Shown here: positions 1,660-63,403 of the stretch, in pieces
How positions within the stretch are numbered: position 1 is the first letter of the stretch
Layout of the letters: the number at the start of each line of letters is the position of its first letter
Source: a virus
DNA: 64,000 nucleotides
Strand: one strand, 5' to 3'
IMG/VR virus record: IMGVR_UViG_3300037493_003061
Span: 1-64,000 of that record
Position numbers and translations under genes: made by a program
The notes under the pieces: model-generated
Database searches by the model: none
Told to the model about the DNA's origin: nothing
What the model saw: the letters and a program-made list of their open reading frames with translations, nothing else

Positions 1660-4579
1660 AATACTACCTTTAGATTATGTTTCAACATTTGATTGTACAT
1701 ATCCTGTGACGATAAATATCAATACCTTTACAGGTGGTGTTCCACCATATTTTGTAGGGGATACTTTCTACACAAGTCAAGCAGCAGCGTTGGCAAACAC
1801 AATTTGGAGTGAAGCGTCAAGTGCCGCTTATGGTGTTGGAACTAGTGGTTTTTATTGGACAGTTATTAAAGATTCAGTTGGAACATTATTATCAAAATCG
1901 GTGAACGCTATTTGTCCAACTCAAACACCAACCCCAACTCAAACAAGAACTGAAACACCAACTCAAACACCAACTAATACGATTACCCCTACGAATACTA
2001 AAACACCAACTCAAACAATAACCCCAACTAAAACACCAACTCAAACAATAACCCCAACTAAAACACCAACTCAAACAATAACCCCAACCGCCAACCAAAC
2101 TTGTTTTACTTTCCCATCAAATCAAACTAATATAATTATAAACGATAATGGTCCAGCATCAGTTTACCCAATAACGTTTACAATTTCAGGTTTAGTTACA
2201 GCAATTAGTGATGTTAAAATAACATTAAGTGGATATTCACATACAGGTGTTGGAGATGTTGGTATGTTATTGGTCGCGCCTGATAATACAAGTTGGTCAT
2301 TATTAACCGGTAGAGTTGGAGGGGTTAATAATGCCGTTAACGCTAACGTAACATTAACAAGTTTTAGTTCACCAACATGGGATGGCTTTAGTTCAGGGAC
2401 ATTCAAAAATAATACTTTGGTTAATAACTCAATGCCATTTTCCGCACCATGTCCAACGACTTTTACAACCGGTAATTCACCAGCGTTCACAATATTTGAC
2501 GGAATACAACCGCCAGTTTCAAATGGCACATGGTCATTATATATTCAAGATTTTTCAATAGTTGATGTTGGTACATTATCAGGTGCGACATTAGTCATAT
2601 GTTCTGAAAACACAACCCCGACTCCAACCCCAACTAACACTGTCACACCAACTAATACCATAACACCAACAAGAACCGCAACTAATACACCAACTAACAC
2701 TCCGACGAATACCATAACACCGACGAATACCATAACCCCAACTAAAACATCCACACCAACTAAAACATCCACACCAACTAATACACCAACTAACACTATA
2801 ACCCCAACAAATACGATAACACCAACTAAAACCCCGACTAATACCATAACACCCACAAATACGATAACACCAACTAAAACCGCAACGCCAACGAATACCC
2901 CTACTAACACAATTACACCCACTAAAACCCCAACACCAACTAATACACCAACTAATACTATAACCCCTACAAATACGATAACACCAACTAAAACCCCGAC
3001 TAATACCATAACACCCACAAATACGATAACACCAACTAAAACAGCCACTCCAACGAATACCCCTACTAACACAATTACACCCACTAAAACCCCAACACCA
3101 ACTAATACACCAACTAATACCATAACACCCACAAATACGATAACACCAACTAAAACCGCAACGCCAACGAATACCCCTACTAACACAATTACACCCACTA
3201 AAACAGCAACACCAACTAACACACCAACTAATACCCCGACTAAAACCGCAACACCAACAAATACTTTAACACCCACAATAACACCACCACCAGTTATTTG
3301 TTTCTTTTTCTCATCGTATATTAACCCAAGTACAGGGCCATATGGTACTTATCAAATATCAACAGGTTCAAGTGGGTTTTATAATGGATATCCGTATTAC
3401 ACAATTATAGCACAATCCACAATCACAGGTTATGTTTGGTACGACACCGTCAATACTACATGGACTTACACAACAACTTTAGGTGGTGGTACAACTATTA
3501 GCGTATTAAATAATTCAATTTCACTACCCTACCCAATATCAAATAGACCGGCCATTTGGTTTGGTTCAATCGCCACAGGAAGTATGGATGAATCTACTTC
3601 AGGTACATGTCCAACACCAACACCAACACCAACAACCACCGTTACGCCTACTAAAACACCAACAAATACACCAACTAGAACTGTAACACCATCTATAACA
3701 CCAACAAATACGATAACACCAACTAAAACAACAACACCATCACAATCAATAACACCAACTAGAACCGTTACACCTACCAACACCGTGACACCAACTAGAA
3801 CCGTTACGCCAACAAGTTCAACACCAGTATTCTCATTATCTGCTTGTGATGTTGTCTTCTCAAATAGTAGCATTTCACCATACCAATTCACGTATAACGT
3901 TAGTACAAATATTAAAACATCAATATCAACACCGGCACTTAATAGCCAATATGTTGCAAAAACATCTAATAGATTATGGTTAGATAATGGTACATCATCG
4001 GCAACCGTTACAAATTTAAATGAATATGTGTTAGTTCAAAGTCCTTACAGTGTATCATTAAATCGTGCAATAGCCATATCAAATAATGGTTCAGGTAATT
4101 TCTGGACAGGATTTTTAGCTTACGATAATACCACATTAATTGGTGGTAATGGTACATTCCCAACTGTTTTAAGACAATTGGATATAACAACAACCACTGC
4201 GACTCAAACAGTTTTATGGAGTACTCCGGTAACAAGACAAATGGTTGGTAATCCTATTTTCACAACCGCTGGTAAGCTACTATATTTAAACATTGACAAT
4301 GCCGGAACACCTAATTCTTACATAACACAAAGAGATTACTTAACAGGCACATTAGAATACGAACTTCAAATTGGTTCTGCCGGTGATATTTACACAGGTT
4401 TATTCTACACAGGATTCGCATTATATACGGTTAAAAATGACGGTAATGTATACCTTATTGACCCATGTACACCTCCATATTTAGTATCAGTTGGTTCTAC
4501 AACAGTTAACACATCATCTCAAGCGGCACAAACAGCTTCTTGTATGACCATCAGTATAGCATATTTAACCTGTTTTTAA
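2..4579 (+). CDS. Giant Thr/Pro-linker fibre-like protein, 5' end outside window
   Basis: The frame is open without a stop from base 2 to the TAA at 4577-4579, giving at least 1525 residues. The GTG at 1706 lies inside this frame and is not a convincing start, because the reading frame upstream is continuous and has the same composition as the later linkers. The protein alternates low-complexity linkers (coordinates about 2-1659, 1915-2093, 2617-3291, 3610-3822) with four globular parts: 1660-1914, 2094-2616, 3292-3609 and 3823-4579. The second globular part resembles the jelly-roll P domain of proprotein convertases. The last contains several WLDNG/LAYDN/YLID-type strands that could be propeller blades, which is a weak inference. 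It is probably a secreted-style virion surface fibre or adhesin, but no attachment or receptor-binding motif is recognisable. It faces the leftward operon and ends at a shared terminator. Confidence 0.85.
1915..2093 (+). repeat. X-Thr linker block 2
   Basis: About 60 residues of [12 protein letters not shown] type inside the giant fibre gene. A 27-base unit encoding TQTITPTKT is repeated almost exactly three times near 2009-2090, which does suggest local slippage or duplication here. Confidence 0.85.
2617..3291 (+). repeat. X-Thr linker block 3
   Basis: About 225 residues of alternating X-Thr sequence between the P-domain-like part and the third globular part of the giant fibre. It contains the long tandem duplication listed separately. 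Confidence 0.88.
2821..3144 (+). repeat. Tandem duplication, 162-base unit
   Basis: Bases from 2821 and from 2983 begin the same stretch and stay nearly identical for 162 bases (54 codons). A third, diverged partial copy follows after about 3145. The period is a multiple of three, so the frame is kept. The copies are much more alike than the rest of the block, which points to a recent duplication by recombination. Confidence 0.75.
3610..3822 (+). repeat. X-Thr linker block 4
   Basis: About 70 residues of [12 protein letters not shown] type separate the third and fourth globular parts of the giant fibre. Arg and Ser are more frequent here than in the other blocks. Confidence 0.85.
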
Positions 4580-34737: not shown

Positions 34738-35736
34738 TTAATTTTTAAACTTTCTTTTTTCTTTTCTTGCCAATTTTAAATAGGGTGTCAAGAATTTTAC
34801 CCATTCATTATCTCTTTTAGGTAGGTATTTAAATAATCCATCTTCCATCATCATTTTCATCAGATTCTTATACCCCCTACCTTCAGGGTCTAAAGTTTCT
34901 GTGTAATAAAGTTCTACAATTTCTTTTCCATCATCATTAATTAAAGGGTTAGACAAATCAACTATTTTTTCATTTATAACAAAAAACTCATCACCAAATA
35001 TACCATTTTTTGTTTTACCGGTCAATAAATTTTTAAGGGTCGTGTTTTCTTTATCCTCTTTTAACATTAACTCCGCCTTTGTTAAAATATCGGAAACAGA
35101 AACTTCTTTATCAAGTATCTCAGGAAATAACTTGATAAATGTTTTTTCACCAAGATAATAAATACCATCAATATTGTCAGATTTATCACCTGATAGTATT
35201 TTATAGGTCGTTATGTTCTGATGAGGTATCTCAATACCATCAATTTTGATTTTATCCCCATTCTTATACACTTTCTTTTGTGATGGGGAATAGACACTCA
35301 CTTTATCAGAAATAAGTTGTGTGAGGTCTTTATCATCTGAGAATATCATTTTTTCTTCGTTAGGAGATATTTGACAATAATAGGCTATAAGGTCGTCCGC
35401 CTCATTATTTGGAATGTCAATTTGTCTAACAAATGTTTCCTCTAAATATTGTTTGATTCTTTGTCGTTGTTGATGATAAGATTCTTCGTTAAAGTTTTTA
35501 TTAACTCTACGATTTTCTTTGTACTGGGGGTATAGTAGCTTACGAGATGATGAGTTATCCTCACCATCCCAAATTGCCACTACTTTATCAAAATTATGTT
35601 CTTCAATAAATCTTCTAATGGTATTTAAAAAGTGCCAAATTCCTCCCACATGTCTTCCTTCATGGTAAAAATCTTTAACTCCGTGAAAACCTATTTTAAA
35701 TAAATTTGAACTATCAATTAGTAATGTTTTAGTCAT
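34738..35736 (-). CDS. 5'-3' exonuclease, T4 RNase H/FEN-like
   Basis: 332 residues. FEN-family metal-binding motifs appear in order: LLIDSSNLFKIGF, VVAIWDGEDN, NNEADDLIAYY, IFSDDKDLTQLI and SGDKSDNIDGIYYLG (helix-hairpin-helix region). The enzyme removes RNA primers and flaps during lagging-strand synthesis. The length is close to T4 RNase H (305). Its start overlaps the end of the homing endonuclease gene by 8 bases, so that insertion left it intact. Confidence 0.9.
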   Translation of the reverse strand: MTKTLLIDSSNLFKIGFHGVKDFYHEGRHVGGIWHFLNTIRRFIEEHNFDKVVAIWDGEDNSSSRKLLYPQYKENRRVNKNFNEESYHQQRQRIKQYLEETFVRQIDIPNNEADDLIAYYCQISPNEEKMIFSDDKDLTQLISDKVSVYSPSQKKVYKNGDKIKIDGIEIPHQNITTYKILSGDKSDNIDGIYYLGEKTFIKLFPEILDKEVSVSDILTKAELMLKEDKENTTLKNLLTGKTKNGIFGDEFFVINEKIVDLSNPLINDDGKEIVELYYTETLDPEGRGYKNLMKMMMEDGLFKYLPKRDNEWVKFLTPYLKLARKEKRKFKN

Positions 35737-36652
35737 TAATCTGTGAATTTACAGGTTCTACAATCTTGTTACTTTTTTGTTTTTTAATTCTTTCTAAAAA
35801 TTTTTCTTTATATCTCTCAATCCAAACTATCTCACCACTTTCATATAAATTAAAAATCTCATCATCTGTTAATTTTTTAACATCTCTTAATTTATAAATT
35901 AAACCCCTTCTTTCACAAAATTTTTCAGCTTCAATTTTTTTCTTAGACACAATTTCCGTAAACCAAAGTTTTCTTGGTTTACACTCAACCATATATTTGT
36001 CGTTTATAATAAAATCAGGAAAATAATTTTTCGTCTTACCTTTGTGTTCAAAAGTAATTTTATACTCTTTTGACTCACCTGTTTTCCAATTTAAATTATA
36101 TTTTTCAATAACATTTATTACATAACTTAATTCTATTAAACTTCTAAAATACCATCCTTTATACCATCCTGACCAACCATTACCTGAACCAAACGGGGGA
36201 GTTTTACCAAACCAATAACATTTTTCACCTCTATTATTTTCTGACTGTTTTTTTTTATATTCTAAAAGTTTTTCATCAGCGATTTCTTTACCATATTTTT
36301 CAACCCATATCTTATAGAATGAATTATTTCTCATAGGTGAATTTTTTTTCATCCATTCACTTAAAATTTGACGGTGTTCAATAGACTTTATTTTTTCATA
36401 ATATTCACTTCTTTTTTCACTGTTCTTAGAAGTTTCAATCATTTTATCCATTGATTCCTTAGTGTGTTTTCTATTATAAAAAGGATTTTTACTCCCTATT
36501 TTAAGACATGATGAACACACACCAGGGGTTTTATTTCTTTTTAACCCCGTACTATAAACCATTCTTTTAGAATATTTAATTATTTCCCCACATTCTTCAC
36601 AATTAATATAACAAGGTGTCTGATGACCTATAGCTTCTTCACATTTACACAT
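35729..36652 (-). CDS. Free-standing homing endonuclease, PD-(D/E)XK type with NUMOD3-like motif
   Basis: 307 residues. The N-terminus has paired Cys motifs (CKCEE, CEECGE, CSSC) suited to zinc binding. A NUMOD3-like DNA-binding segment follows (GSKNPFYNRKHTKES), then a restriction-enzyme core: FRSLIELSYVI, YFPDFIINDKYMVECKP with the catalytic Asp, Glu and Lys. Such enzymes cut a cognate allele lacking the insert and spread by repair. It is inserted between uvsX and the FEN gene and overlaps FEN by 8 bases. Its layout matches the gene at 62696-63403, so two members of one family are present. Confidence 0.8.
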   Translation of the reverse strand: MCKCEEAIGHQTPCYINCEECGEIIKYSKRMVYSTGLKRNKTPGVCSSCLKIGSKNPFYNRKHTKESMDKMIETSKNSEKRSEYYEKIKSIEHRQILSEWMKKNSPMRNNSFYKIWVEKYGKEIADEKLLEYKKKQSENNRGEKCYWFGKTPPFGSGNGWSGWYKGWYFRSLIELSYVINVIEKYNLNWKTGESKEYKITFEHKGKTKNYFPDFIINDKYMVECKPRKLWFTEIVSKKKIEAEKFCERRGLIYKLRDVKKLTDDEIFNLYESGEIVWIERYKEKFLERIKKQKSNKIVEPVNSQIND

Positions 36653-45994: not shown

Positions 45995-46310
45995 AATATA
46001 AGAAGTGGTTATCTAATGCATTTTTATAATCCTGTAAAGAAGCTATTAAAGGAACTGGAATTGTCAAGATAGAACCATCAGGAATATTCCATTCTAATCC
46101 TCCATACATAGGATTCGCAACTAAAATTAACCACCCAAAGTATGGGGCACCATAATATTGTTGTGATAAAATATCTAATCTTGATTGTCCAACCTTGTAA
46201 ATATATCGTTTATCACTAGTTTTAGACGGTAATGTTATGTACGGAACAACCGTTTGTTCACCATTTAAAACAAAATTGTTATATCTATTATAATATTGTC
46301 TTCCAGCCAT
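45984..46310 (-). CDS. Baseplate wedge protein, gp53/LysM-like
   Basis: 108 residues. The segment YKVGQSRLDILSQQYYGAPYFGWLILVANP followed by IPDGSILTIP (split here as two adjacent stretches) has the LysM-like layout seen in T4 gp53 and P2 gpX: a helix after D-x-L-S-Q-x-Y-Y-G, then W, then P-x-G-x-x-L-x-I-P. Such proteins clamp baseplate wedges or the tube. It is shorter than T4 gp53 (196). It has a TAATG junction with the 1596-residue gene and overlaps the hub gene, in typical baseplate order. Confidence 0.75.
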   Translation of the reverse strand: MAGRQYYNRYNNFVLNGEQTVVPYITLPSKTSDKRYIYKVGQSRLDILSQQYYGAPYFGWLILVANPMYGGLEWNIPDGSILTIPVPLIASLQDYKNALDNHFLYYGR

Positions 46311-49300
46311 TATAGTTTTATTTTACCATCAAAAATTGTTAATGTTATTTGTCCATAATTAGTAGTACCATAAATATTTTTAAGGGTCTGTTCTTGTGTC
46401 GCTTGTGTTGCAGTGTTTTTAACCGTAGTATAATTCATTCGTCTTGTCTTACCTTTAGGATACATTAATTCCGTTATGTCAGTAGTATATTTAGTATATT
46501 TTTTATTTTTCTTAAAATTAGTGATAAGTTTTTCTTCATCTTTTAACTCTTTTCTATAATCATCAGATAAATCATCACACTTTTTATTAAAAAACTTTCT
46601 AATTTTTTTATTCGCATCATTAGTTAATGGTCCCGAAATAACAAAATCTTTAAACCCTTGTAATTTATTAGAATCACTTAAAACTCTAGCCATAACCATA
46701 AAAAACAATACATCTTCAATTTTACTATTTAATGGTTCAAATGGTTTTGCATCATCTTTCTTATATTCAACTATTAATTTTTCATCATTTAATAATTTGT
46801 TGAATGATTTTAAACCATCAGGTAATTTCCCATAATCTTTTTCAAATTCGGTAAATGTGTCTGAAGCATTACTTGTACTAGCAACATCACCAGCTTTTAC
46901 TGAACCTGTAATATTATAAACTTTAGGAGTTAACCCATCAACAATTTTACCATCAGTTTTAGTACTCAATAAATTAAGTTGTCTAATTAAACCGATTAAA
47001 TCATTTTGTTGTGATGTCATATCACTAATAATAGTTGATAAACCAGAATTATAATCACTAATCATGTTATTCACATATTGTTCCATATTTTGTCTTAATA
47101 TTTTCATACCAACCGTTCCATCCGATTTATCAACATTTTTTATAATATAAGCAATTATTGGGTTAAGTTCCCCCGTTTTAATACTAACAATAACTTTTTC
47201 AAATAATGTTTTAGTTAATTCATTAACATCAGGTTTACCATAGATAATATTAGTATTCATTTTACCACCAATAGTACCATCCGTATAATCACGAGTACCA
47301 ATATTATTCATCAATTGTAAAGTACCATAATTATATTGTAAGATAACTTTCTCCATTTGATTAGGTATATTTGTATAATAATTTTTAGACACATCAATTA
47401 AGGTATCCATAACTTTACCATAAATAATTTCACCCGTTTGTCCACCTTCAACGGGGTTTTCAGTTTTTATTTCACCAATAGTATTACCACCTTTATTAGG
47501 TTGTTGGTTATTAACGGTTTCATTTTTACTGTTATCAGAATTCGCAACTATCTCATCAAATACTTTTTTATCTAACGCTTCAGTATCTTCAGTCCAAGTT
47601 GCTCTTTCATCATATATCTCAGTATTTGCATAATAATTGAAGGACAATGCATTTTGTAATTGGTCAACAGGACCTTTTAATCCCATACCACCAATTATGT
47701 TAAACCCTAAACTAACCTCAACTATCATTGGTTGAACACCAATACCTTCAGGGTTCATATCAAATAATATAGGGTCATATGAAAAACTAAGACTATTCGG
47801 TATAATTTTAGTATTATAAAAATCACCAATTCTAAGTACTAAGACAGGTGCTGAACCAAATGATGTATTTGTTGCATCATTATAAACTGGTTTACCATCA
47901 GGACCTATCACAGGAATTGTATCACCAGGTCTAACACATTGATTTAAAAATGTTATACGAGAATTTAACCCTTCAGGTGTCATTGAGTGAAACGCTGGAT
48001 TGAAGTATTTGATTTTTTCTTTTAATGAACTATAAATCATTGGGTCATTCTCCTTAATCATTTCAAAATAATCACACTCCGATAATAACACTCTCAATAC
48101 TTTTTTACTTAAACCTTTTTTTAATTTTTCACTAACACTAACTGTTGGTTGTGGCTCAATTGGTTTAACATCAATATCAATAGTTGTAGGTTTTTCTTCA
48201 ACTTTAGGTGGTTCTGGTGGTGGCATAGGTGTTGCCGTAATATTTTGTATGTTAACACGTCTACACGCCATCGCACTTAATGCAAATGTTTGAGACACAC
48301 CATTACTAACACCATTACTTCCCGATATATCAACATGACAATCTATAGATTCACCCGAACCCCCACCACCTTTTGGTGCTATCACGGTTTCAATTTCACC
48401 TTTAGCGGTCGCCGAAACAACTTTAAATTGTTCTTTACCCGCAACCATAAATTCACCTAAGTTAGCATCACCTATTTTAGTATTTTTAAAAAACTCTTTA
48501 ACCGAATTAATTCTTCGTTCAGATAACGATTTATTATAATCTACCGAAGCAACAGCCGATGCCGAACCAATCATGGTTACGGTAATAGATTTTAACTTTT
48601 TACTTTTAAGTAAATTATATGCTTCGACAATAAACCCATCAGTTTTTGTAATTGTTTCATAATTACTTTTAATTAAATTAAAAAAAGAGTCAGTATTACG
48701 ATTTATATTACCAACAGCAAATGTTACTGATGATTTATCAAAATATTTTTTAATATTACTATCACTAGTATATGCATCATAAGTTGATTTATAATCAGTT
48801 CCCGAAGTTTTAGGTATATCATTTTCAAAGTAAAAAGAAAAATCTTTATACTTATTTTCAAAATCTTTTGCCGAAGTATCCGAAGTTGTTACCGTCTTTT
48901 GTGGGTCACCAGTACTAGCGGTACTACCACCCGTACTCGTATTTTCCGCAGGTATAGACTGTTTTAACACAGACAACTCTTCAGGAGTTAACCTTGGGTT
49001 ATTTAATGTATCTTGTATTTGTTGTAATTCATTAACAGGTATTTTTGGGTATTTAGCTGCTAAAGTATATAAATCAAATTTAGCACACCCCGCAAAAAAT
49101 GATTCTAATATAGAATTTGCTCTATCTGAACTAGCATCTTTTAATTGGTAATTAACTATCGTATTTAAAATTGAAGGATGGTCAACAATAATTTTCCAAC
49201 TTAATTGACCACTTCTACTTGTTTGTTTGTAAGTATATATTGGTTCAGGTCTACCAATGAAATTAGTCGGATTCCAATCCGCTTGACTTGAATCACTAAA

Positions 49301-51100
49301 CTTAATATCATATGGTGGAAACCACATAACACGTCCACCATTAGAACCTCTTTCACATACCGGTAAATCACTTACTCGGAATCCTTCACGACCAGAATTT
49401 CTCCAAGCTAAATTCTCAATTGAGAACATATATTTTTTAGCATAACCACCGTCATCATTCCATCCTGACCCTTTAACAATATTTGTTGACCCAGGATTTT
49501 TTAATGGTGCAATATTAAGGTTATAAGTATTATCTAATACTGAATTATTAAATCGTCGTCCTGATGTTGTAATACCATCAGTTTTTTGTAAATCGGCGTA
49601 AGTATAATATGGTATATCTTTAGCAAATACCCTACAATATTCAATACCAGCTTGAGCACCCGTTGTGTTATCACTATATGATACAACTTGAGACCCTTTA
49701 GTCATTTCTTTATACCCATCATTAAACACTTTGGACACTTGATTAATAGCATTACCAACATGTTTTAATCTATTAGGACCAGTAACGTTATCTGCAGAAT
49801 TAACTAACTTTTGAGTATTATCAAGTATTGAATTAGGTTTTAATTTTAAATTAGTTGATTCTGAACTTTGATATTTAGAACTAATAATATTAAATTGACC
49901 ATCTTTACTACCTGTTCCACCACCAACTGTTGGTTTAAAACCAGCATTACCTTTATACTTAGGTGATGTCCAAACAAAATCACCATCAATACTTTTACCG
50001 TTCCCACCTAAACCAAATTTTAAAGAACCAATATTACCTTCGTATAATTTAGAAATTTCATCAGGACCATAAACAGGTGCTAACACTTGTTGACCCATAG
50101 AGTTAACAGGTATTTGATTTGCCGGTGAAACTATTTGTGAGGGGTCAGAATTTGGACTACCAATATAAAAACTACTAACAACAGTTCCATTTGGGTTTAT
50201 ATCATTTTTAACACCATTAACTAATCCTGTAACCCCACCAATTTCCGAGTCATAATTAGGTTTATATCTATTATAATATAAATTCGCAAATAATGCGGAT
50301 TTTTGACCATTACCCGTGTTAGCTAAAAATATTTGTGATGGATTTCGTTTTAGATTTAAAATTGGCCCAAGTAATCCTCCTGTTAATTGATTTACAGTAC
50401 TTAATGCTCCCGCAGTTTGTGATGTTGGTAAACCATTATTTACGTTTTCATCAAAATAATCACCAGGAATAAACGATACTGGCCAATAAGAACCTGAAAT
50501 TCTTGTTGCAAAATCAACCGCTGCAAGAATAGGACTCTCAGGAATAGTAATACTCCAATTTCTATAAATTAGAGGTTCTTGTCCAGTTGCAATCAATGTT
50601 GCTTGGAATGGGTCTTGTAATGAGTTTAAATTAACAACACCAACTGTATTTTGATAAATTTGAAAATTTATTCTTTCTTCAAATGCTTTCTTTAAAAAAG
50701 TTGCGCCTAATTTAGCAATATACGAGTCCTGAGATAATGAACCATCAGAACCTGTAGGATTATTATTTAATAGTATTGAATATGGTGTGTATTTTGACGG
50801 TAAAAAACTTTCTAAATATGGTCCTTGATTTGGCGCATTATTTAATACCTGTAAATCATACATATTTAATTTGTACCCCCCATTAGGTCCAAAACCATTA
50901 ATCACATAATAATTTGTTGGTGATAAAATATTAAGATTATTAGGTGAATCAATCACACTAAAATTACTTAAACCTGTTTCATAATTAATTACCCCACTAG
51001 GTGGACTATAAGTACCCGTTACACTATATGGACTTAAATTCTTAACAATTAAGGCATTTCTAAATTTTGTTGTAGACGCAAATGATAATGGACTTGGCAT
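46310..51100 (-). CDS. Giant tail-tube-initiator/baseplate protein with OmpA-like domain
   Basis: 1596 residues, directly after the tape measure. Residues about 580-655 (RVMWFPPYDIKFSDSS, FIGRPEPIYTYKQTSRSGQL, IIVDHPSI) match a motif family of gp48-like tube-initiator/baseplate proteins. Residues about 790-905 resemble an OmpA C-terminal peptidoglycan-binding domain: SASAVASVDYNKSLSERRI, then NSVKEFF. A Pro/Glu-rich linker follows near 970-1000, and a second beta domain near 1070-1160. The C-terminal 400 residues are helical. The fusion is unusual and suggests a baseplate part that grips the cell wall. Function beyond tail assembly is inference. Confidence 0.65.
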   Translation of the reverse strand: MPSPLSFASTTKFRNALIVKNLSPYSVTGTYSPPSGVINYETGLSNFSVIDSPNNLNILSPTNYYVINGFGPNGGYKLNMYDLQVLNNAPNQGPYLESFLPSKYTPYSILLNNNPTGSDGSLSQDSYIAKLGATFLKKAFEERINFQIYQNTVGVVNLNSLQDPFQATLIATGQEPLIYRNWSITIPESPILAAVDFATRISGSYWPVSFIPGDYFDENVNNGLPTSQTAGALSTVNQLTGGLLGPILNLKRNPSQIFLANTGNGQKSALFANLYYNRYKPNYDSEIGGVTGLVNGVKNDINPNGTVVSSFYIGSPNSDPSQIVSPANQIPVNSMGQQVLAPVYGPDEISKLYEGNIGSLKFGLGGNGKSIDGDFVWTSPKYKGNAGFKPTVGGGTGSKDGQFNIISSKYQSSESTNLKLKPNSILDNTQKLVNSADNVTGPNRLKHVGNAINQVSKVFNDGYKEMTKGSQVVSYSDNTTGAQAGIEYCRVFAKDIPYYTYADLQKTDGITTSGRRFNNSVLDNTYNLNIAPLKNPGSTNIVKGSGWNDDGGYAKKYMFSIENLAWRNSGREGFRVSDLPVCERGSNGGRVMWFPPYDIKFSDSSQADWNPTNFIGRPEPIYTYKQTSRSGQLSWKIIVDHPSILNTIVNYQLKDASSDRANSILESFFAGCAKFDLYTLAAKYPKIPVNELQQIQDTLNNPRLTPEELSVLKQSIPAENTSTGGSTASTGDPQKTVTTSDTSAKDFENKYKDFSFYFENDIPKTSGTDYKSTYDAYTSDSNIKKYFDKSSVTFAVGNINRNTDSFFNLIKSNYETITKTDGFIVEAYNLLKSKKLKSITVTMIGSASAVASVDYNKSLSERRINSVKEFFKNTKIGDANLGEFMVAGKEQFKVVSATAKGEIETVIAPKGGGGSGESIDCHVDISGSNGVSNGVSQTFALSAMACRRVNIQNITATPMPPPEPPKVEEKPTTIDIDVKPIEPQPTVSVSEKLKKGLSKKVLRVLLSECDYFEMIKENDPMIYSSLKEKIKYFNPAFHSMTPEGLNSRITFLNQCVRPGDTIPVIGPDGKPVYNDATNTSFGSAPVLVLRIGDFYNTKIIPNSLSFSYDPILFDMNPEGIGVQPMIVEVSLGFNIIGGMGLKGPVDQLQNALSFNYYANTEIYDERATWTEDTEALDKKVFDEIVANSDNSKNETVNNQQPNKGGNTIGEIKTENPVEGGQTGEIIYGKVMDTLIDVSKNYYTNIPNQMEKVILQYNYGTLQLMNNIGTRDYTDGTIGGKMNTNIIYGKPDVNELTKTLFEKVIVSIKTGELNPIIAYIIKNVDKSDGTVGMKILRQNMEQYVNNMISDYNSGLSTIISDMTSQQNDLIGLIRQLNLLSTKTDGKIVDGLTPKVYNITGSVKAGDVASTSNASDTFTEFEKDYGKLPDGLKSFNKLLNDEKLIVEYKKDDAKPFEPLNSKIEDVLFFMVMARVLSDSNKLQGFKDFVISGPLTNDANKKIRKFFNKKCDDLSDDYRKELKDEEKLITNFKKNKKYTKYTTDITELMYPKGKTRRMNYTTVKNTATQATQEQTLKNIYGTTNYGQITLTIFDGKIKL

Positions 51101-51138: not shown

Positions 51139-53004
51139 TTAAACTAGTAATCCGTTGTTAGTTACCGTTTCTTTTAATTTTTTGTTTAAGGCTTGTAATG
51201 TTTCGGTTTTATTTAAAATTTCCATTACTTTAGTTTCTGACATATTACCTGAATCAATCTTAATTGTTAATGTAATATCGTGTGTATTTTTATTTTCACT
51301 AACCGTACCATTTGTTTGAGTATTCATAGGTTGATTCAACATATTTAATTTCTCCAAAAATTCGGGACCTTTCGTCATTGAAATGAAAGAATCTTCAGGT
51401 AAAAATTGTATTTCTTGCCCAGGTATTTTAAGAGTGTCTTGACCTATTTTGTGTGTTGTTTCAGTTTCCCCTTCCTTACCATCAGTTTTACCATTAGAAA
51501 AATCAAAAAATCCTGATAATTCTGTTTTTGCTTTTTCTAACGTACCAACAAAAGATGTATCAATATATTTACCTAAGTCTGTAAATGTTTCACTTAATTT
51601 TCCCATATTAACATTACCCGACTCAAAGGAATCTAATAAACCTTTAGTAGTAATATCAATTTGTTCTCTAAGTTGAGTTGTTGTCGTTCCGGCCTTTTTA
51701 TCGTCAAATATATTTGACAATTTTTGTGACCCTTCTTTAGTTTTTTTCAGAACCTTACTTGCGGCTTTTGAACCGGCTAACGCATATCCAGGTTTTTCAG
51801 AGATAGTTTTTAAACTAGCTGCCATTGTTTGTAATACACTTAATTGGTCTTCTGCTAATTTTGTAATGTCTTTAGGTTTTTGAGATTCAAAAAATGCCGT
51901 TTTCTGTTCGTCATTCATCGCACTCATTTCCATCATCGCCTCTTCCATACTCATCGTCTTACTACCTTCATCAGTTTTCATGGTAATTTTATATTCACCA
52001 TCTTTACCCATTTCAGACATATTAGCTATCATTGTCTTTTCCTCTTCGGTAAAGTTTCCAGTGAATCTAATTTTTGACATTTTATCATTAAGTTCAGCAC
52101 TACTTAACGCCATTTTAGCCAATGTACCTTGAGTCATACCCATAGCCTTTTCAACCTCCTCCATTTGTCGTTTAGCACCAGGTAGAATTTCAAATTGACC
52201 CTTTTCATTTAATGTTGCAAATTGTTTTGACATTTCAACAATTTGATTTTGTAATTCAGCTGGGTCATTTTGAGCTAAATCCATTAAACGAAGTGGGTCT
52301 AATAAATCAGATTGCGCAATACCTAATCTTTGTAATGATGCCGCCATTTCAATTGCTGATTCAGGATTGAATGCCTTATCCATAGTATTTCCAATATCTC
52401 TAATGCTAACCCTCATATTAATAGCTTGTGCCGCCATTTTAGCAAGACCGTCAACACCCCCTTGGAATGTATACTTATTCATAAGGTCAAGATTTGATGC
52501 AACTTCAGCACCAACTTTTTGAGCACTAACACCAATTTCTCTGGCCCTATCCATAATTTTTTGGATTTCACCACTAGATTGATATAAAGATATACCAACA
52601 TCTTTTAAATCGGTAATTAATGAATCGGCCATTGGCCCCATCACTTCTTGGGCTGCAAATAAATCCTTATAAGCTTCACTAGATACTACTAAATTACGTC
52701 CAAAAGAATCGGAAACTTGGTTCTGTATTTTAAGGATAGCGTCAAATCCGCCACCTAATTTAGTAACTTCAACAACCGCATCAGACATACTGATTTTTAA
52801 GTTATCTATTTGGTCTCTACCTTGACCAAATTTTTTGATAACACCAGTTGTTTTTTCATCAACATCTTCAATAATTTTACTAATTTGTCTATAATCAATT
52901 GCGTCAGTAAATGCTTTACCTAAACTTTCACCAATATTACTTAAACCATCAGATATATTTTTTGTAGTTTTACCAATACCATCAGCACCCTCTGTTCCTG
53001 CCAT
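51139..53004 (-). CDS. Tape measure protein (tail length regulator)
   Basis: 621 residues, near the length of T4 gp29 (590). Mostly alpha-helical, with heptad-like stretches (IDNLKISMSDAVVEVTKLGG, MDRAREIGVSAQKVGAEVAS), Met/Ala-rich helices and no enzymatic motif. It lies between the chaperone pair and the tube-initiator-like gene, the conserved position of tape measures. At about 1.5 angstrom per residue the length would give a tail of roughly 90 nm, an estimate only. A terminator lies upstream, so it may be made from its own transcript or by readthrough. Confidence 0.8.
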   Translation of the reverse strand: MAGTEGADGIGKTTKNISDGLSNIGESLGKAFTDAIDYRQISKIIEDVDEKTTGVIKKFGQGRDQIDNLKISMSDAVVEVTKLGGGFDAILKIQNQVSDSFGRNLVVSSEAYKDLFAAQEVMGPMADSLITDLKDVGISLYQSSGEIQKIMDRAREIGVSAQKVGAEVASNLDLMNKYTFQGGVDGLAKMAAQAINMRVSIRDIGNTMDKAFNPESAIEMAASLQRLGIAQSDLLDPLRLMDLAQNDPAELQNQIVEMSKQFATLNEKGQFEILPGAKRQMEEVEKAMGMTQGTLAKMALSSAELNDKMSKIRFTGNFTEEEKTMIANMSEMGKDGEYKITMKTDEGSKTMSMEEAMMEMSAMNDEQKTAFFESQKPKDITKLAEDQLSVLQTMAASLKTISEKPGYALAGSKAASKVLKKTKEGSQKLSNIFDDKKAGTTTTQLREQIDITTKGLLDSFESGNVNMGKLSETFTDLGKYIDTSFVGTLEKAKTELSGFFDFSNGKTDGKEGETETTHKIGQDTLKIPGQEIQFLPEDSFISMTKGPEFLEKLNMLNQPMNTQTNGTVSENKNTHDITLTIKIDSGNMSETKVMEILNKTETLQALNKKLKETVTNNGLLV

Positions 53005-53030
53005 AATTTATCAATATTATATAATAATAA

Positions 53031-53067
53031 ATACCCCAAAGAATATTTTACTAATCCTTTGGGGTAT
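53031..53067 (-). terminator. Terminator after chaperone pair, before tape measure
   Basis: A perfect 11-bp stem (ATACCCCAAAG, 15-base loop, CTTTGGGGTAT) followed by TTATTATT on the minus strand. The stop codon of the 61-codon frame lies inside the loop, which supports that frame as a real gene end. Confidence 0.75.
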
Positions 53068-53236
53068 TATCTTCAATGATTTTATTAATCAGATATTTTC
53101 TTATATAGGTCGGGATATTTAGATAATCGGGATACGACATTCTTAAAAATCTCGCCAAAATATAAAATTCATCTATTAAATATTTCACATAATTAGAAGA
53201 AAGGGCGAAAAAACTCAGCCCCAAAGGAAACATCAA
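53051..53236 (-). CDS. Second chaperone frame, possibly made by frameshift
   Basis: 61 codons if started at TTG/ATG, overlapping the end of the 252-residue gene by 44 bases in the +1 frame. The product after the overlap (YVKYLIDEFYILARFLRMSY, then NIPTYIRKYLINKII) is helical and aromatic. A small frame overlapping the gene before the tape measure is the hallmark of tail assembly chaperone pairs (lambda G/GT type). There is no good ribosome site at its own start: AGGAG is 15 bases before the ATG. Expression as a C-terminal extension of the upstream protein is therefore an alternative. Its stop lies inside a terminator. Confidence 0.55.
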   Translation of the reverse strand: MMFPLGLSFFALSSNYVKYLIDEFYILARFLRMSYPDYLNIPTYIRKYLINKIIEDNTPKD

Positions 53237-53951
53237 ATGTTACCAATTCTCCTGACGGGGCGATTACGTTTCTCTTTAAATCCAAAGACGGTTGATTGTC
53301 ACTAATAAATTTTCTTATATATTTTGAATCCATAATTGGTAATGAATCAACAAATTTTGATATATATCCTCTATCAGTATTACCATCAACAGACACTATT
53401 ATCTTATTTAATCTCCAAGTTATTTTTGGTGCTACCATTCCAGCTGGATATTCTTCAGATTGTCTATCCAATTCAACTATTTCACTAAATGTTAAAGGTT
53501 TTAATTGAACCGTTAACTCACTTTTAGGTAATTTAGTTGTAAACAGACCATTTTCATCTGGTTTATGTTCACTTTGTTTAATATTTAAAGATTCCAAATA
53601 TTCAGTATGTGAAAAATACTTGTTGGTAGCAGGGTCTAATAATTGAACACCATATTCAGGACCAAATGACGTATTTCTCAAAAATATTAAAATTGCTTCA
53701 ACATCACCTTCTAATAATTCGTCAGGTCTTAAATCAGGTTCATAAATTTTATTTCTTAATAAACCAATAACAATATTTTCTTTAGAACTTCTATTAGAGT
53801 TCAATAAATAATTTTCATCATTCGCTGTTAAATAACCTACTTTAACCGATTTCTTTTTAGATTTATAATAAATCCCACCACTAGGTAATATTACAACATC
53901 GTGAGGTAAATTAAAATTTTCTTGACCAGCTTGCATTAAACTTTGTTCCAT
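53193..53951 (-). CDS. T4 gp26-like baseplate/tail chaperone protein
   Basis: 252 residues. The opening HDVVILPSGGIYYKSKKKSV and the helical EGDVEAILIFLRNTSFGPEY region fit the T4 base-plate protein family that includes gp26. Family members act in hub and tail assembly and occupy the slot before the tape measure, where other tailed phages keep their tail chaperone G. It lies between the tube gene (with its terminator) and the tape measure. Its last 14 codons overlap another frame and contain two slippery runs, so a longer 299-residue product is possible. Confidence 0.65.
   Translation of the reverse strand: MEQSLMQAGQENFNLPHDVVILPSGGIYYKSKKKSVKVGYLTANDENYLLNSNRSSKENIVIGLLRNKIYEPDLRPDELLEGDVEAILIFLRNTSFGPEYGVQLLDPATNKYFSHTEYLESLNIKQSEHKPDENGLFTTKLPKSELTVQLKPLTFSEIVELDRQSEEYPAGMVAPKITWRLNKIIVSVDGNTDRGYISKFVDSLPIMDSKYIRKFISDNQPSLDLKRNVIAPSGELVTFDVSFGAEFFRPFF
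53207..53222 (-). promoter_or_regulatory. Candidate programmed frameshift site
   Basis: Within the overlap the minus strand carries GGGG (53222-53219, codons GGG GCT) and then TTT TTT C (53213-53207). A +1 slip of Phe-tRNA from TTT to TTC, or of Gly-tRNA on GGGG, moves into the 61-codon frame. A -2 slip, as in phage Mu, would give the same frame. Confidence 0.4.
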
Positions 53952-55583: not shown

Positions 55584-57104
55584 TCAATAATTAATTTCAA
55601 ATTTTAGTGAACCACAATCCCAAATTCTATCATAACCTTTCTCAATCATAATAGACCATTCAGTTTTTTCATTGGAAAATCCTTCTTTAACTAATAAATC
55701 TTTTCTAAAATTAAATCTATGATATCTATGTAAATAACAATTATTTTTAATATACCAATAATTTGGTGGTGTTTGATGTACATAAGTAAAACCATTTTTA
55801 TAATACACGGTATTTTCGGGATTTAGACCTGACCAACGAATATCAGCATAAGTTTCTATTTTTTTAGGGTTAAATGTTTTAACAAAAAATTTCAATAATT
55901 TAGAAAAACCACCAACAACGGTTATATTTTTTTTATTACAAAATCTAATTAATTCATATTCGTCAACTGTATTATTTTTGTTACCTAAAACTTTTCTTTT
56001 TTTACCAAAAGTCATTAATGACACTAATTCATTATTATAAAATAAACCAAATCTATGTTTATCTATACTGTTACCTTGTAAATGGTTTTCGTTTAAGAAT
56101 TGTGTTGAAACTTTTTTATTAACTTCATTAATTTGACATTTTCTACCAAATATTAAGTCATTAGTTTTTAACATACTTGATAACCTTGAAAAGACAATAT
56201 CAGTTTTTAGTATTATTTCATCCTCAAAAAATTGTAATAATTTAACATTTTTTTGATAAGATAATTTCATTTTGTCTAAATGATAATGTCTATCTTTTTC
56301 ACCGGCATTTTCTGAATGATAATAATTACCATTTATTTCAATACCTAAATTGAATTCTGGTAAGTATAAATCTATTTCTTTACCATCTAAAATTTTTCTA
56401 TCATTATCAATATGTTTAATATTATTTTTATTTAGATAATCTCTAACAATTTCTTCTAATTTAGAATTTTTAATGATGGGAAAACATTTTCGGCATATCG
56501 GTATTTTACCTGAGCCTAATATAGTACTTGAAAATATATTTTCACAAATATTACATTGAAAACTATAAGACATTGAGGTATTACCACTTTTATTAACCGA
56601 GTACTCATCAAGTAATGTTAAATTACCTTCACCTAATCGTGGTATTAAATGAGTTAAATGTTTTTCTTTAACAGTATTTTTTAATTTATTAACCATATTA
56701 TGGTCGTACATTGGATGTTCAACACCATATTTTTCAATAAAATTTTTTTTATAATTTAACTTAAATTCTTTTGTATCAAAAAAACTTTCAGCTCCGTATT
56801 TAACCTGTAAACTTTCTTTTGACTTTAATAATCTATTTTTTTTATTATCCTCTTTTTTAGACCATATTAAACGACATTCGTGAGAACACATGGTTTTATT
56901 ATGTTTTTTTCTTTCAATAAATTCTACACCACATTGTACACAATTTCGTTTTTCTCTAACTGATTCGTCTTTTGGTTTACCCAATAGATTATTTTTTTTA
57001 GCATAACCAAAATAACAACTTCTATTACAGAATTTTTTATCTCTGTGTTTATAATCAGTGGTAAATATATTATTACAATTTTGACATTTTAAATCTATTT
57101 TCAT
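55584..57104 (-). CDS. Free-standing homing endonuclease, Vsr-like core
   Basis: 506 residues from the ATG at 57104; a longer frame to 57164 would place the TATTTATA leader inside the gene. Two zinc-binding modules open the protein (CQNCNNIF with CNRSC; CVQCGVEF with CSHEC), and a third pair follows (CNICENIF, CRKC). The nuclease core near residues 245-310 reads EIDLYLPEFNLGIEINGNYY, then HSE and KDRHYHLDKMKL, then LLQFFEDE. This is the Vsr-like layout of a homing endonuclease family known from phages. The C-terminal half (NENHLQGNS, GLFYNNELVSLMTFGKKR) is a conserved companion domain, perhaps GNAT-like. It interrupts the sheath-tube gene order. Confidence 0.75.
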   Translation of the reverse strand: MKIDLKCQNCNNIFTTDYKHRDKKFCNRSCYFGYAKKNNLLGKPKDESVREKRNCVQCGVEFIERKKHNKTMCSHECRLIWSKKEDNKKNRLLKSKESLQVKYGAESFFDTKEFKLNYKKNFIEKYGVEHPMYDHNMVNKLKNTVKEKHLTHLIPRLGEGNLTLLDEYSVNKSGNTSMSYSFQCNICENIFSSTILGSGKIPICRKCFPIIKNSKLEEIVRDYLNKNNIKHIDNDRKILDGKEIDLYLPEFNLGIEINGNYYHSENAGEKDRHYHLDKMKLSYQKNVKLLQFFEDEIILKTDIVFSRLSSMLKTNDLIFGRKCQINEVNKKVSTQFLNENHLQGNSIDKHRFGLFYNNELVSLMTFGKKRKVLGNKNNTVDEYELIRFCNKKNITVVGGFSKLLKFFVKTFNPKKIETYADIRWSGLNPENTVYYKNGFTYVHQTPPNYWYIKNNCYLHRYHRFNFRKDLLVKEGFSNEKTEWSIMIEKGYDRIWDCGSLKFEINY

Positions 57105-57172
57105 TGGTAAAATATTAATGATAATTACGAGTACCTCTCTACATATAAATATACGAAAATACATAAAAAAAC

Positions 57173-57225: not shown

Positions 57226-60200
57226 TTAAATATTTTCAAATGACGCACCTGTTGGTGTGATATAAAAGGTGATATCAATAAATTCTAACGATTTCGTTGG
57301 TTTTATGTATATTTTACCTGTCATTTGGTTTCTATCTAAATCGGCAGAATCTGAAGAAACTGTTACACGGAAATCGTATAAACCTCTATCTCTTCGGATA
57401 CCATCCAATATTGGATTCACAGCATTTAAGAAATCTTGTCTTACTTTTTCATCGTTTTGTTCAAACAACAATCTAACTGAAACCGCTGAAATTAATTTAC
57501 GAGCTTGTAATAACAATCTTCTTACGTTGATTCTATCAAGAGCAGATTCTTTAATCTGAAGAGTTTTGTTACCCCAAATAACTGTACCAACATCTGAGAA
57601 GGTTGCAATTGGGTTAATTCTTCCTTTGTAAAGAACATCTCTATCTTCTTGAGTCAATTTCTTACGAGCTTTGATTGAACTCACGATACCTCTCGTATAA
57701 CCCGCAGCCGCGAACCAAGGGAACGCTACGTTATCCGTTAACGCTAAGTTTTTAGTGACCTCACCTGTTGGTGGTAAGTAGATTTGTGTGTTATTAACAG
57801 TATCTCTTACTAAAATCCATGGGTAATAAGTTGCTGTGTAGTTAGAATCAATTCCTGAAGTCTCCAAATTATCAACCGCTTCTTGTGGGTAAATTAAATC
57901 TGTTGGGTCACCTAATGAAGGTGTAAACATGTTATAATCAGGTGTTGTTGTGATATAGACAGAATCCGCTCTATTGAATTCTATCATTTCAATAGCACTA
58001 CCAACTAAATCTGAGTTATTAACATAATCAATACCAGGTGTTACGAATACATTGATGTTAACCGCTTCAGGATTAGAGAATGTTTGAATTCCTAATAAGT
58101 AAGCGTAGTAATCGGTATTTGCGTAATCCACTCTGTTTTGACCAACAGTTATTTGTTTAAATGCACCCCAACCAGTAGCTGTAGGATATTTTAATGTTGG
58201 ACAAGAACCTTTTAAATAACCAGTTCTACCTAACACATATCTGTCTGAGTTTGTTCTATATTCTCTATATATGTCCCATCCGTCAAAACCACCACCAACT
58301 AAGAATGAGAATTTTCTAGCATATAATCTGTAGTATGGATTTGATTCATTGTCAGGGTCTGATGTAAATTCGGCATCACCACAAACGAATTCAGGAGTAC
58401 CACTCGTTACAAACGAATTTGGTATAGTTATAACACTAGCGTTTTTATCCATATGGAATCCTTTAGTTCTATAAGACCATTCAGGACCTGTTATCGCATC
58501 ACATAATGATGTATTTGGTATTTGTTTACCTTTATATTGGTAGAAATCAGTATCTATACCAACAGTATTTGAGATACCTAAGTAAGTTCTTCTAACATTA
58601 TCACCAGGACTTGTTGAAACCGCGTTTGAACCTGTTGATAAACCAAATGGTGGGTCAAAAACAACTTCACCAGGATAATCGTATTTAGATTTAATTAATG
58701 GGAACGGTGAACGACTTCCTGCATATTCTCTTGTTGTGTATCCTTGGAATCCACATGGTAATGCGTCAATCGGTGCGTCTTCATTAAGTTCAACCATTAC
58801 ATATTTAGAATTCAATTGGTATTCACCATCAGATGTACCAACTTTTTTACCAATGAAATTGTTATCACCAGGGTTCATATTACAATTAGTAAATTTCTCA
58901 ATAACAACAGGATTGTTATCCGTATCAAAGAAATCTCTAACTAATACGTCAAATGTTCCGTTGTTAAACGATATATTTGCAATAGAAATTTTTACTTCAG
59001 TGTTAGCATCATTACCATCAGAAATGGTGATAAATTTAAACAAGTTAAATACTTTAGAACCTCTCAATTCAGATACAACCCATGGAGATGATGGTGATTG
59101 ATATTTTTCTAAGTAGAAACCAATTGAACTAGTACTTTCACTTCTTGCAGAATCTAAAGCATTTAACTCACAATTTAAACCTCTAATATAACCTTTTCGG
59201 TATGCGTTAATTAACAAAGTTGCATATGATTCCTCAATAAATAATGGAACAGATTCTTTATCTTTACCAAAATTAGATTTACCAAAAACTTTACTAAGAT
59301 ATTTTGAGTCTGAACTAGATAACGAAGTTTCAAAGAATAAATTAGTACCATCAGATTTAGTTACATTTAAACCAAACGTTGAGAATGGGTTTTTAGTAAC
59401 ACCTGAATAACCACCTGTACACACCATTTCAACATCAGTTAATCCTGATACTTCATAAACAGCACCATCGTCGGTACCATAAGTAGCTAAACCTCTTGAA
59501 CGCATTGTCGCAATAACCAAATCATCGTAATCTGTGTAAGCAGTTCCTGAATACACATAAATTCTACCCATTAACGTACCCGTATAACAATGAACAGGTT
59601 TTGCTGTTGTAGTTGTTGTAGTTGTAGTTGGAACAGGTGTAACACAAGGATTAGTTGTTGTGGTAGTTGTTGTTGGTGCTATTGTTGTTGTTGTTATAAT
59701 AGGTACTAATGTTAAATCAGTAACAATTGACCAAAAAGAATAACCTGAATAAACACTATTACCAACATTATCAAATAATGCATAGTACCAAGAATCATTT
59801 TTAGGGGCTGTGTAATCAGCACTTAATGAATCAATACCATCAACATCAAATACGTTAGTTGAACCAGTAAAAGCTGATAACCCAACATATGCTGAATAAG
59901 GTATTGTACCATAATAATTAATTGAACTTAATTCTGTTGATGGTTCATTTAAAATATTAAAAATTTGAAGTTTAATGTCAGTATTTAATGTTGAAATACT
60001 GTTATCAAAATTTTCATATGGTAAATAAAGTTTAGTTGCAATTTCGTCAGGAAATTGTGTTGGGTCTAAGAACGTGATACCGTCAATACTATTAGTACAT
60101 CCTGAGAAATCAATTGCAAAATCAATCGTTTTGAAATCAACACATTCAGTTACACAATCAACTGTTGTTGCACTTTCACAATAAAAATCAACCGTTGATT

Positions 60201-60552
60201 TATCAACGTTTGCTTTAGTTAATATAGACCATGAAGGTCCCGCGTCGTACCCCGATAATCCTAATATTCTAGTCACAAACAATTGATTAGATTGTTGTAA
60301 ATAAGATTTCGCAATGTAAGACGCTTCATACTTAGGAATTTGTGTATTCACAAATTTTTCAGGTGATGTACCCCCAAAATACGATGTAAACTCATCAAAG
60401 TTAGTGATAAAAATAGGTTCAAATGCGGGACCTTTTAAAGTTTCCCCTACTATACCTAATGTAGTAACACCAACACTCTGAGCTACAAAACTCAAATCAA
60501 CCTCGGATGTATAAACTCCGGGTGATACGAATACTTTACTGTTTGTCGCCAT
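57226..60552 (-). CDS. Tail sheath protein, T4 gp18-like, with inserted domain
   Basis: 1108 residues, much longer than T4 gp18 (659). The N-terminus (FVSPGVYTSEVDLSFVAQSV) and C-terminus (GIVSSIKARKKLTQEDRDVL, then VIWGNKTLQIKESALDRINV and RRLLLQARKLISA) are classic sheath, with the C-terminal handshake strands intact. The extra length lies mainly at residues about 120-620. Inside it, residues about 283-322 are two poly-Thr/Pro runs enclosing a short Cys segment, so a module displayed on the outside of the tail is likely. The sheath contracts to drive the tube through the envelope. It starts from an A+T-rich leader facing the small + strand gene. Confidence 0.93.
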   Translation of the reverse strand: MATNSKVFVSPGVYTSEVDLSFVAQSVGVTTLGIVGETLKGPAFEPIFITNFDEFTSYFGGTSPEKFVNTQIPKYEASYIAKSYLQQSNQLFVTRILGLSGYDAGPSWSILTKANVDKSTVDFYCESATTVDCVTECVDFKTIDFAIDFSGCTNSIDGITFLDPTQFPDEIATKLYLPYENFDNSISTLNTDIKLQIFNILNEPSTELSSINYYGTIPYSAYVGLSAFTGSTNVFDVDGIDSLSADYTAPKNDSWYYALFDNVGNSVYSGYSFWSIVTDLTLVPIITTTTIAPTTTTTTTNPCVTPVPTTTTTTTTAKPVHCYTGTLMGRIYVYSGTAYTDYDDLVIATMRSRGLATYGTDDGAVYEVSGLTDVEMVCTGGYSGVTKNPFSTFGLNVTKSDGTNLFFETSLSSSDSKYLSKVFGKSNFGKDKESVPLFIEESYATLLINAYRKGYIRGLNCELNALDSARSESTSSIGFYLEKYQSPSSPWVVSELRGSKVFNLFKFITISDGNDANTEVKISIANISFNNGTFDVLVRDFFDTDNNPVVIEKFTNCNMNPGDNNFIGKKVGTSDGEYQLNSKYVMVELNEDAPIDALPCGFQGYTTREYAGSRSPFPLIKSKYDYPGEVVFDPPFGLSTGSNAVSTSPGDNVRRTYLGISNTVGIDTDFYQYKGKQIPNTSLCDAITGPEWSYRTKGFHMDKNASVITIPNSFVTSGTPEFVCGDAEFTSDPDNESNPYYRLYARKFSFLVGGGFDGWDIYREYRTNSDRYVLGRTGYLKGSCPTLKYPTATGWGAFKQITVGQNRVDYANTDYYAYLLGIQTFSNPEAVNINVFVTPGIDYVNNSDLVGSAIEMIEFNRADSVYITTTPDYNMFTPSLGDPTDLIYPQEAVDNLETSGIDSNYTATYYPWILVRDTVNNTQIYLPPTGEVTKNLALTDNVAFPWFAAAGYTRGIVSSIKARKKLTQEDRDVLYKGRINPIATFSDVGTVIWGNKTLQIKESALDRINVRRLLLQARKLISAVSVRLLFEQNDEKVRQDFLNAVNPILDGIRRDRGLYDFRVTVSSDSADLDRNQMTGKIYIKPTKSLEFIDITFYITPTGASFENI

Positions 60553-62695: not shown

Positions 62696-63403
62696 TTATT
62701 TCTCATACAATTTAATAAAATCTTTACCGTATCGTTTTAATGTATAATCAAGATATTTTTCCATATCTTTTTTATATAAAACATTAAGGGGTTTACTAAA
62801 TTGATTAATTTTTACCTTACTTTGTTCATCCAAATCATTAAAACATCTGCGACCTTTAATTTCAAAAAAGACCCCATCAATAATAAAATCAGGATAATAT
62901 TTTCTTTTTTTATTATTATAAATATATTCAAAACCTTCAATATTCCTCACAAAAGAAATATTATTTTCAATGTTATATATAACCCAAGCCAATTCCCAGC
63001 TACTATCACACCAATAACCTTTATACCAACCTTTTTTACCTTTACCGCTACCTTTTCTTAAACCACCTGATAATTGATTTAATCTCATGGTGTTAGAAAT
63101 TTTTTTTCTACGTTCAATTTCTTTTTCAAATGTTGATGAAACCCCTTTTGATTTACCTATTAATGAATCACTAATCTTTTTTTTATATTCGTCGGTTAGT
63201 TGTTTACCTTTATTCCATGGGTTATATTGAAATCCTTCAATTTTCCATGGTGGTGTTCCGGTAAATTTACCTTTTTTCTTTAATGAATCAGTCATTCTTT
63301 TAAATTCACAAGAATTTGGTGATTGTTCACAACACCCTTTACCTGATTTAAAAAAAAATTTTGCAACTTTCCCACAACCATATGAACATATAATATCACT
63401 CAT
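62696..63403 (-). CDS. Free-standing homing endonuclease, PD-(D/E)XK type, beside tRNA
   Basis: 235 residues. The N-terminal zinc finger (CSYGCGKVAKFFFKSGKGCC) is typical of phage-borne homing endonucleases. A NUMOD3-like piece follows (NPWNKGKQLTDEYKKKIS), then WYKGYWCDSSWELAWVIY and the nuclease core YYPDFIIDGVFFEIKGRR with catalytic Asp, Glu and Lys. It ends 3 bases before the 5' end of the tRNA-Ser gene, so the tRNA may lie on the same transcript. It shares its layout with the gene at 35729-36652. There is a divergent 123-base gap to the helicase gene. Confidence 0.8.
   Translation of the reverse strand: MSDIICSYGCGKVAKFFFKSGKGCCEQSPNSCEFKRMTDSLKKKGKFTGTPPWKIEGFQYNPWNKGKQLTDEYKKKISDSLIGKSKGVSSTFEKEIERRKKISNTMRLNQLSGGLRKGSGKGKKGWYKGYWCDSSWELAWVIYNIENNISFVRNIEGFEYIYNNKKRKYYPDFIIDGVFFEIKGRRCFNDLDEQSKVKINQFSKPLNVLYKKDMEKYLDYTLKRYGKDFIKLYEK

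Follow-up and report, generated by a model that had tools for sequence, protein, structure and literature searches.

The comparative analysis reported here indicates that this virus very probably produces two versions of a tail assembly chaperone from a single gp26-like gene by programmed +1 ribosomal frameshifting at UUU_CGC, although this conclusion is inferred from sequence alone, without protein, mass spectrometry or reporter evidence. The window analysed is a 64,000-nucleotide stretch of a 64,788-bp IMG/VR virus record (IMGVR_UViG_3300037493_003061). On its minus strand, the genes follow the order sheath, tail tube, gp26-like gene and a 621-aa gene in tape-measure position (Table 1). The gp26-like gene overlaps a 61-codon frame in the +1 (equivalently -2) frame, by 44 nt from the first possible start codon of that frame (TTG), or 47 nt from the preceding stop codon. 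The junction reads GGG GCT GAG TTT TTT CGC CCT TTC TTC TAA (53222-53193), and a +1 slip from TTT to TTC gives a 299-residue fusion. The preliminary description, which favored the joining of two chaperone frames before the tape-measure gene by such a slip, was confirmed as to the arrangement and supported as to its interpretation.

Table 1. Coordinates of the junction, its parts and other features of the window
Position	Strand	Feature	Support or remark
53193-53951	-	gp26-like chaperone gene (short product, 252 aa)	PF12322 T4_baseplate, 30.2 bits against a cutoff of 24.5; PHROG_150 baseplate hub
53051-53236	-	Second frame from its first possible start (TTG), 61 codons	ATG at 53233
53205-53210	-	+1 shift site UUU_CGC	P-site TTT 53210-53208, A-site CGC 53207-53205
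53211-53213	-	Upstream (E-site) TTT codon	Nearly invariant
53207-53213	-	TTT TTT C
53214-53222	-	GGG GCT GAG, GC-rich stretch	Under synonymous selection; candidate stimulator of unknown action
53219-53222	-	GGGG
53051-53207	-	+1-frame extension, read from the base after the slip	TAG at 53053-53051
53027-53071	-	Terminator-like hairpin overlapping the end of the extension, with the stop codon in its loop	RNA fold z -4.15
51139-53004	-	Putative tape-measure gene, by position	No clear family match; the gene at this place is annotated as tape measure in SP-15 and Flavobacterium phage immuto
54054-54542	-	Tail tube gene (gp19-like)	PHROG_4542 tail tube, E 1.8e-27
57226-60552	-	Sheath gene
55584-57164, 62696-63403, 35729-36652		Three homing-endonuclease-like genes	DUF7487, NUMOD3 and TnsA-like nuclease matches; one lies between the sheath and tube genes
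46310-51100		1596-aa tail-module protein	OmpA-like domain match (about residues 816-900), slightly below the Pfam cutoff
1706-4579	+	957-aa protein rich in TPT-type repeats, the longest plus-strand gene in the window	Weak proprotein convertase P-domain match

Conservation and selection in the +1 frame

A protein scan identified 12 relatives displaying 67-89% identity, and every one that reached the junction had the same +1 overlap and stop position. An alignment scan yielded 80 loci, corresponding to 44 distinct junctions (with the window and the relatives L009 and L010 counted in), all of which were +1. A canonical -1 shift of the X_XXY_YYZ type is therefore not consistent with the near relatives, -1 frames being found only in distant ones. 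Of 150 distinct sequences with the complete extension, none had a stop codon in the +1 frame over the first 118 nt past the gp26 stop, whereas the other two frames were closed in 150 and 149 sequences. Between moderately diverged pairs, pN/pS was 0.19 in the +1 frame, indicating strong purifying selection, but 1.58 and 1.17 in the other frames. Likewise, column variability had frame-0 phase upstream of the site (0.66, 0.43 and 1.13 bits) and shifted phase downstream (1.43, 0.98 and 0.80). The 150 sequences are related, and these counts thus overstate the number of independent events.

The possibility that the second frame is a separate gene, initiated within the overlap or by re-initiation after the gp26 stop, was also considered. 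A TTG and an ATG are present in this frame in the window, the extension is a separate gene with its own ATG in two distant relatives (L232 and L237), and Vibrio K452 has an overlapping ATG. However, 10 of the 150 sequences have no ATG, GTG or TTG in the second frame before the gp26 stop, and the next such codons lie inside the conserved domain. Separate, non-overlapping genes, each with its own start, were found in none of the 150 near relatives, and only in a few distant relatives (L232, L237 and probably Vibrio K452) and in T4-type phages. This reading, which does not explain the invariant TTT_CGN, is contradicted by the relatives and very improbable.

Codon usage at the shift site

To avoid selecting for particular codons, we scanned with a pattern allowing every synonym of the peptide G-(V/A)-(E/D)-F-F-R-P-F-F-stop. 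Among 158 distinct matches, the second Phe codon was TTT in all and the Arg codon was CGN in all, with AGA and AGG never seen, although allowed. The first Phe codon was TTC in four of the 158 matches. Arginine elsewhere in the same 150 genes is encoded by AGA in 77% of cases, CGC in 0.4% and CGG in 0.2%, whereas the codon at the site is CGG in 66, CGC in 43, CGT in 33 and CGA in 8 of the 150 sequences; CGG and CGC thus fill 109 of 150 sites, but account for about 0.6% of arginine codons elsewhere in the gene. Ranked by departure from gene-wide codon use, this column was the first of 67 conserved columns, and the GGG column was the second. In the window itself, CGC and CGG make up 8 of 510 arginine codons, and no tRNA gene was found. 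The host is unknown, and the tRNA supply and decoding rate of CGC and CGG are therefore assumed from the phage's own codon use.

These data are best explained by a model in which most ribosomes translate the gp26-like gene to its stop codon, whereas some pause when the rare codon CGC enters the A site. The tRNA-Phe in the P site would then slip from UUU to the overlapping UUC one base on, with which its GAA anticodon pairs at least as well, and translation would continue as GCC CUU UCU, adding 50 residues. The slippage itself and its rate are inferred. The predicted junction peptide is FGAEFFALSSNY, rather than one with a third Phe (EFFFALSS), as expected for -2 slippage, or GLSFFALSS, as expected for a shift at GGGG.

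The -2 alternative, in which the P-site tRNA-Phe slips back two bases within UUUUUU, giving the same frame with one extra Phe, is compatible with the TTTTTT run present in the window and in 154 of the 158 sequences. Nevertheless, four near relatives (TTC_TTT_CGN), phage GXN1 (TTC_TTT_CGT), the group of relatives including L222 (TTC_TTT_TGG) and LR756508 (AAC_TTT_CTA) keep the same frame without a T run that allows -2 re-pairing, and the invariant C after TTT and the rare A-site codon are what a +1 shift needs. One distant relative, LIS04 (TTT TTT AGT), would re-pair better at -2, as a +1 slip would result in a third-position mismatch; the direction may not be uniform over the family, but -2 slippage is considered very unlikely here. 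Transcriptional slippage on the T run, yielding a mixed mRNA pool, is even less likely: a run of six T is probably short for RNA polymerase slippage, relatives with only TTCTTTC or TTTC keep the frame, and the A-site codon bias has no meaning for a polymerase.

A +1 slip at GGG_G would permit perfect tRNA-Gly re-pairing, and GGG was found at this place in 148 of 150 sequences, against 9.8% elsewhere. However, four relatives (L184, L215, L139 and L155) carry a TAG in the +1 frame between GGGG and TTTTTTC, such that a shift at GGGG would terminate and the change of frame must come at TTTTTTC or later. Furthermore, the changes between GGGG and TTTTTTC fall on frame-0 third positions and are radical in +1. 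A shift at this position is thus contradicted by the relatives and very unlikely.

Candidate stimulatory elements

Synonymous selection was evident 3-12 nt upstream of the P-site codon, affecting not only GGG, but also GTG (57% of Val at the site against 12%), GAG (63% against 20%) and GAC (95% against 29%). This stretch could correspond to a Shine-Dalgarno-like element (GGGGUG would fit the codon bias) or to a structure, but neither is established. No signal was obtained for a downstream stimulatory RNA structure (mean z -0.45 over 50 relatives). A long-range pairing of CCTTTGGGG (shift region) with CCCCAAAGG (end of the extension) is present in the window, but the second element is not kept in most relatives, and, for a pairing of upstream GCCCC with GGGG, third positions vary freely (CCG/CCA/CCT). 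A small hairpin, GGGG...CGNCCU, spanning the site folds in the window and is more stable than synonymous recodings, but nearly all of this effect comes from GGG and CGN themselves. We do not propose it as the stimulator, because CGG, the commonest A-site codon, spoils the pair seen in the window, and a ribosome on the site would have melted the hairpin. The terminator-like hairpin noted in the preliminary description is real in the window, but its stem sequence differs in relatives; it is therefore a neighboring feature not shown to be part of the frameshift. Notably, TATTTAT lies within 60 nt upstream (mostly 20-46 nt) of 11 of 35 minus-strand start codons (e.g. 51100, 54542, 9164 and 26992), with 36 copies on the coding strand against 17 on the other, and is found just before the tape-measure gene in most relatives (53004-53040 in the window); it may be a promoter element.

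Distant relatives

At the same Phe-Phe junction, the frame is +1 in Flavobacterium phage immuto (TTT CTT), Streptomyces phages BRock (TTT CGC) and LuckySocke (TTT CAG), Microcystis phage Mel-JY01 (TTT TGG), SP-15 (TTT CAC), GXN1 and LR756508. The A-site codon is not rare in every distant +1 relative (e.g. CGC in a Streptomyces phage; UGG, CAC or CUU elsewhere), and Alishewanella phage Slickus01 (L254, 2001-2866) has a +1 extension frame but no clear TTT slip site at the junction. The frame is -1, on T_TTT_TTC or T_TTT_TTT, in RaK2, PBECO4, GAP32, Munch, PA5oct, Atu_ph07, Phosso, RAS14, XacN1, Vibrio 2.275.O, Ah1, S-CAM9 and LR756511, and in phiM12, OLIVR5 and ACP17. On a 39-row tree, these labels clustered strongly, with at least two changes forced for each direction. 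Public records usually annotate the extension as an independent small gene (SP-15 SP15_046, immuto gp038, cyanophage "gp51") or leave it out (Acidovorax phage ACP17), and these annotations could be corrected (L015 4740-4859, L242 2830-2940 and L262 after 2262).

Relationship to T4 gp26 and gp51

T4 gp26 (208 aa) and gp51 (249 aa) both match PF12322 (E 8.8e-64 and 3.9e-52, respectively), and are therefore paralogues. T4 gp26 ends with KEFFELL at the junction, whereas gp51 continues in frame for about 45 residues that match the cyanophage extension family PHROG_634, and is a natural in-frame version of the fusion. The extension family of the window matches the gp51/cyanophage extension family by profile comparison (probability 94.7, E 5.7e-8, one pair). 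gp26 and gp51 formed one clade (96/88) among -1 lineages, but the branches are long, and this placement should be considered with care. The simplest account is that an ancestor made both forms by frameshifting and that the T4 line duplicated the gene, keeping one short copy and one in-frame long copy. It is fairly likely, but not established, that the whole gp26 family is the T4-type branch of frameshifted tail chaperones, with the short and long products joined at a homologous junction by +1 slippage (UUU_N) in some lineages and -1 slippage (U_UUU_UUY) in others, and with frameshifting replaced by gene duplication in the T4 lineage. T4 is listed as the exception to G/GT frameshifting (PMC5009743), and gp26 and gp51 are listed as hub assembly chaperones (PMC3004832). 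If our reading is right, this exception disappears. We found no report of frameshifting in the gp26 family, or of gp26/gp51 as a G/GT pair, among the open-access papers searched.

Predicted fold of the fusion

The fusion of the relative L010, folded with 43 relatives, had a mean pLDDT of 82 and a pTM of 0.71, with the extension predicted to form two helices at lower confidence. A PDB sequence search gave no relative, and Foldseek gave no PDB match at E <= 0.001. The best solved matches by VIA-align were an uncharacterised Bacillus protein (3fgx, Z 6.3) and the HK97 tail assembly chaperone (2ob9, Z 6.0 over 95 of 104 residues, rank 2 of 987 chains), above the unrelated rows, which start near 4. 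These matches, which remain below Z 8, are supportive, but do not constitute proof.

Comparison with known systems

The site type and the biological context are both known separately. What is new is the codon-level evidence from 150 sequences, the placement in the gp26 family, the change of direction within one homologous junction and the explanation offered for T4. The sequences also provide a large natural data set for a poorly understood site type, UUU_CGN, in bacterial viruses, with clear evidence that the A-site codon is chosen to be rare. As in lambda gpG/gpGT and other tail assembly chaperone pairs made by frameshifting (Xu, Hendrix and Duda 2004; PMC5009743), the gene lies between the tail tube and tape-measure genes, an order also found in SP-15 and immuto, and a short product would be accompanied by a frameshift-extended product, with a weakly conserved sequence but a conserved arrangement. 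By analogy, both products would act as assembly chaperones of the tape-measure protein, and the extension would tether tail-tube subunits. The direction is, however, most likely +1 rather than -1, the chaperone is of the T4 gp26 family, and no match to gpG/gpGT was found by sequence. The +1 site UUU_CGN of influenza A PA-X and amalgaviruses (PMC3498833) has the same P-site UUU, CGN A-site codon and re-pairing from UUU to UUC, with a rare A-site codon, and shifting at UCC_UUU_CGU has been proven by mass spectrometry in PA-X. These are eukaryotic viruses with an unrelated protein, and the E-site codon is UCC in PA-X, where changing it reduced but did not abolish shifting, rather than UUU (UUC in 4 of 158) as here. 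A +1 shift at TTT-CGC has already been proposed for the tail chaperone gene of HF1-group haloviruses (PMC7230728), with the same motif at the same genomic place, but in archaeal hosts, on the basis of six genomes and without a codon-level test. The -2 frameshift of phage Mu gives the same net frame in the same kind of gene, but re-pairing at -2 is not possible in several of the relatives studied here. Finally, T4 gp26 and gp51 are also PF12322 proteins, with gp26 ending at the homologous junction and gp51 continuing into an extension like that described here, but they are encoded by two paralogous genes on opposite strands instead of one frameshifted gene.
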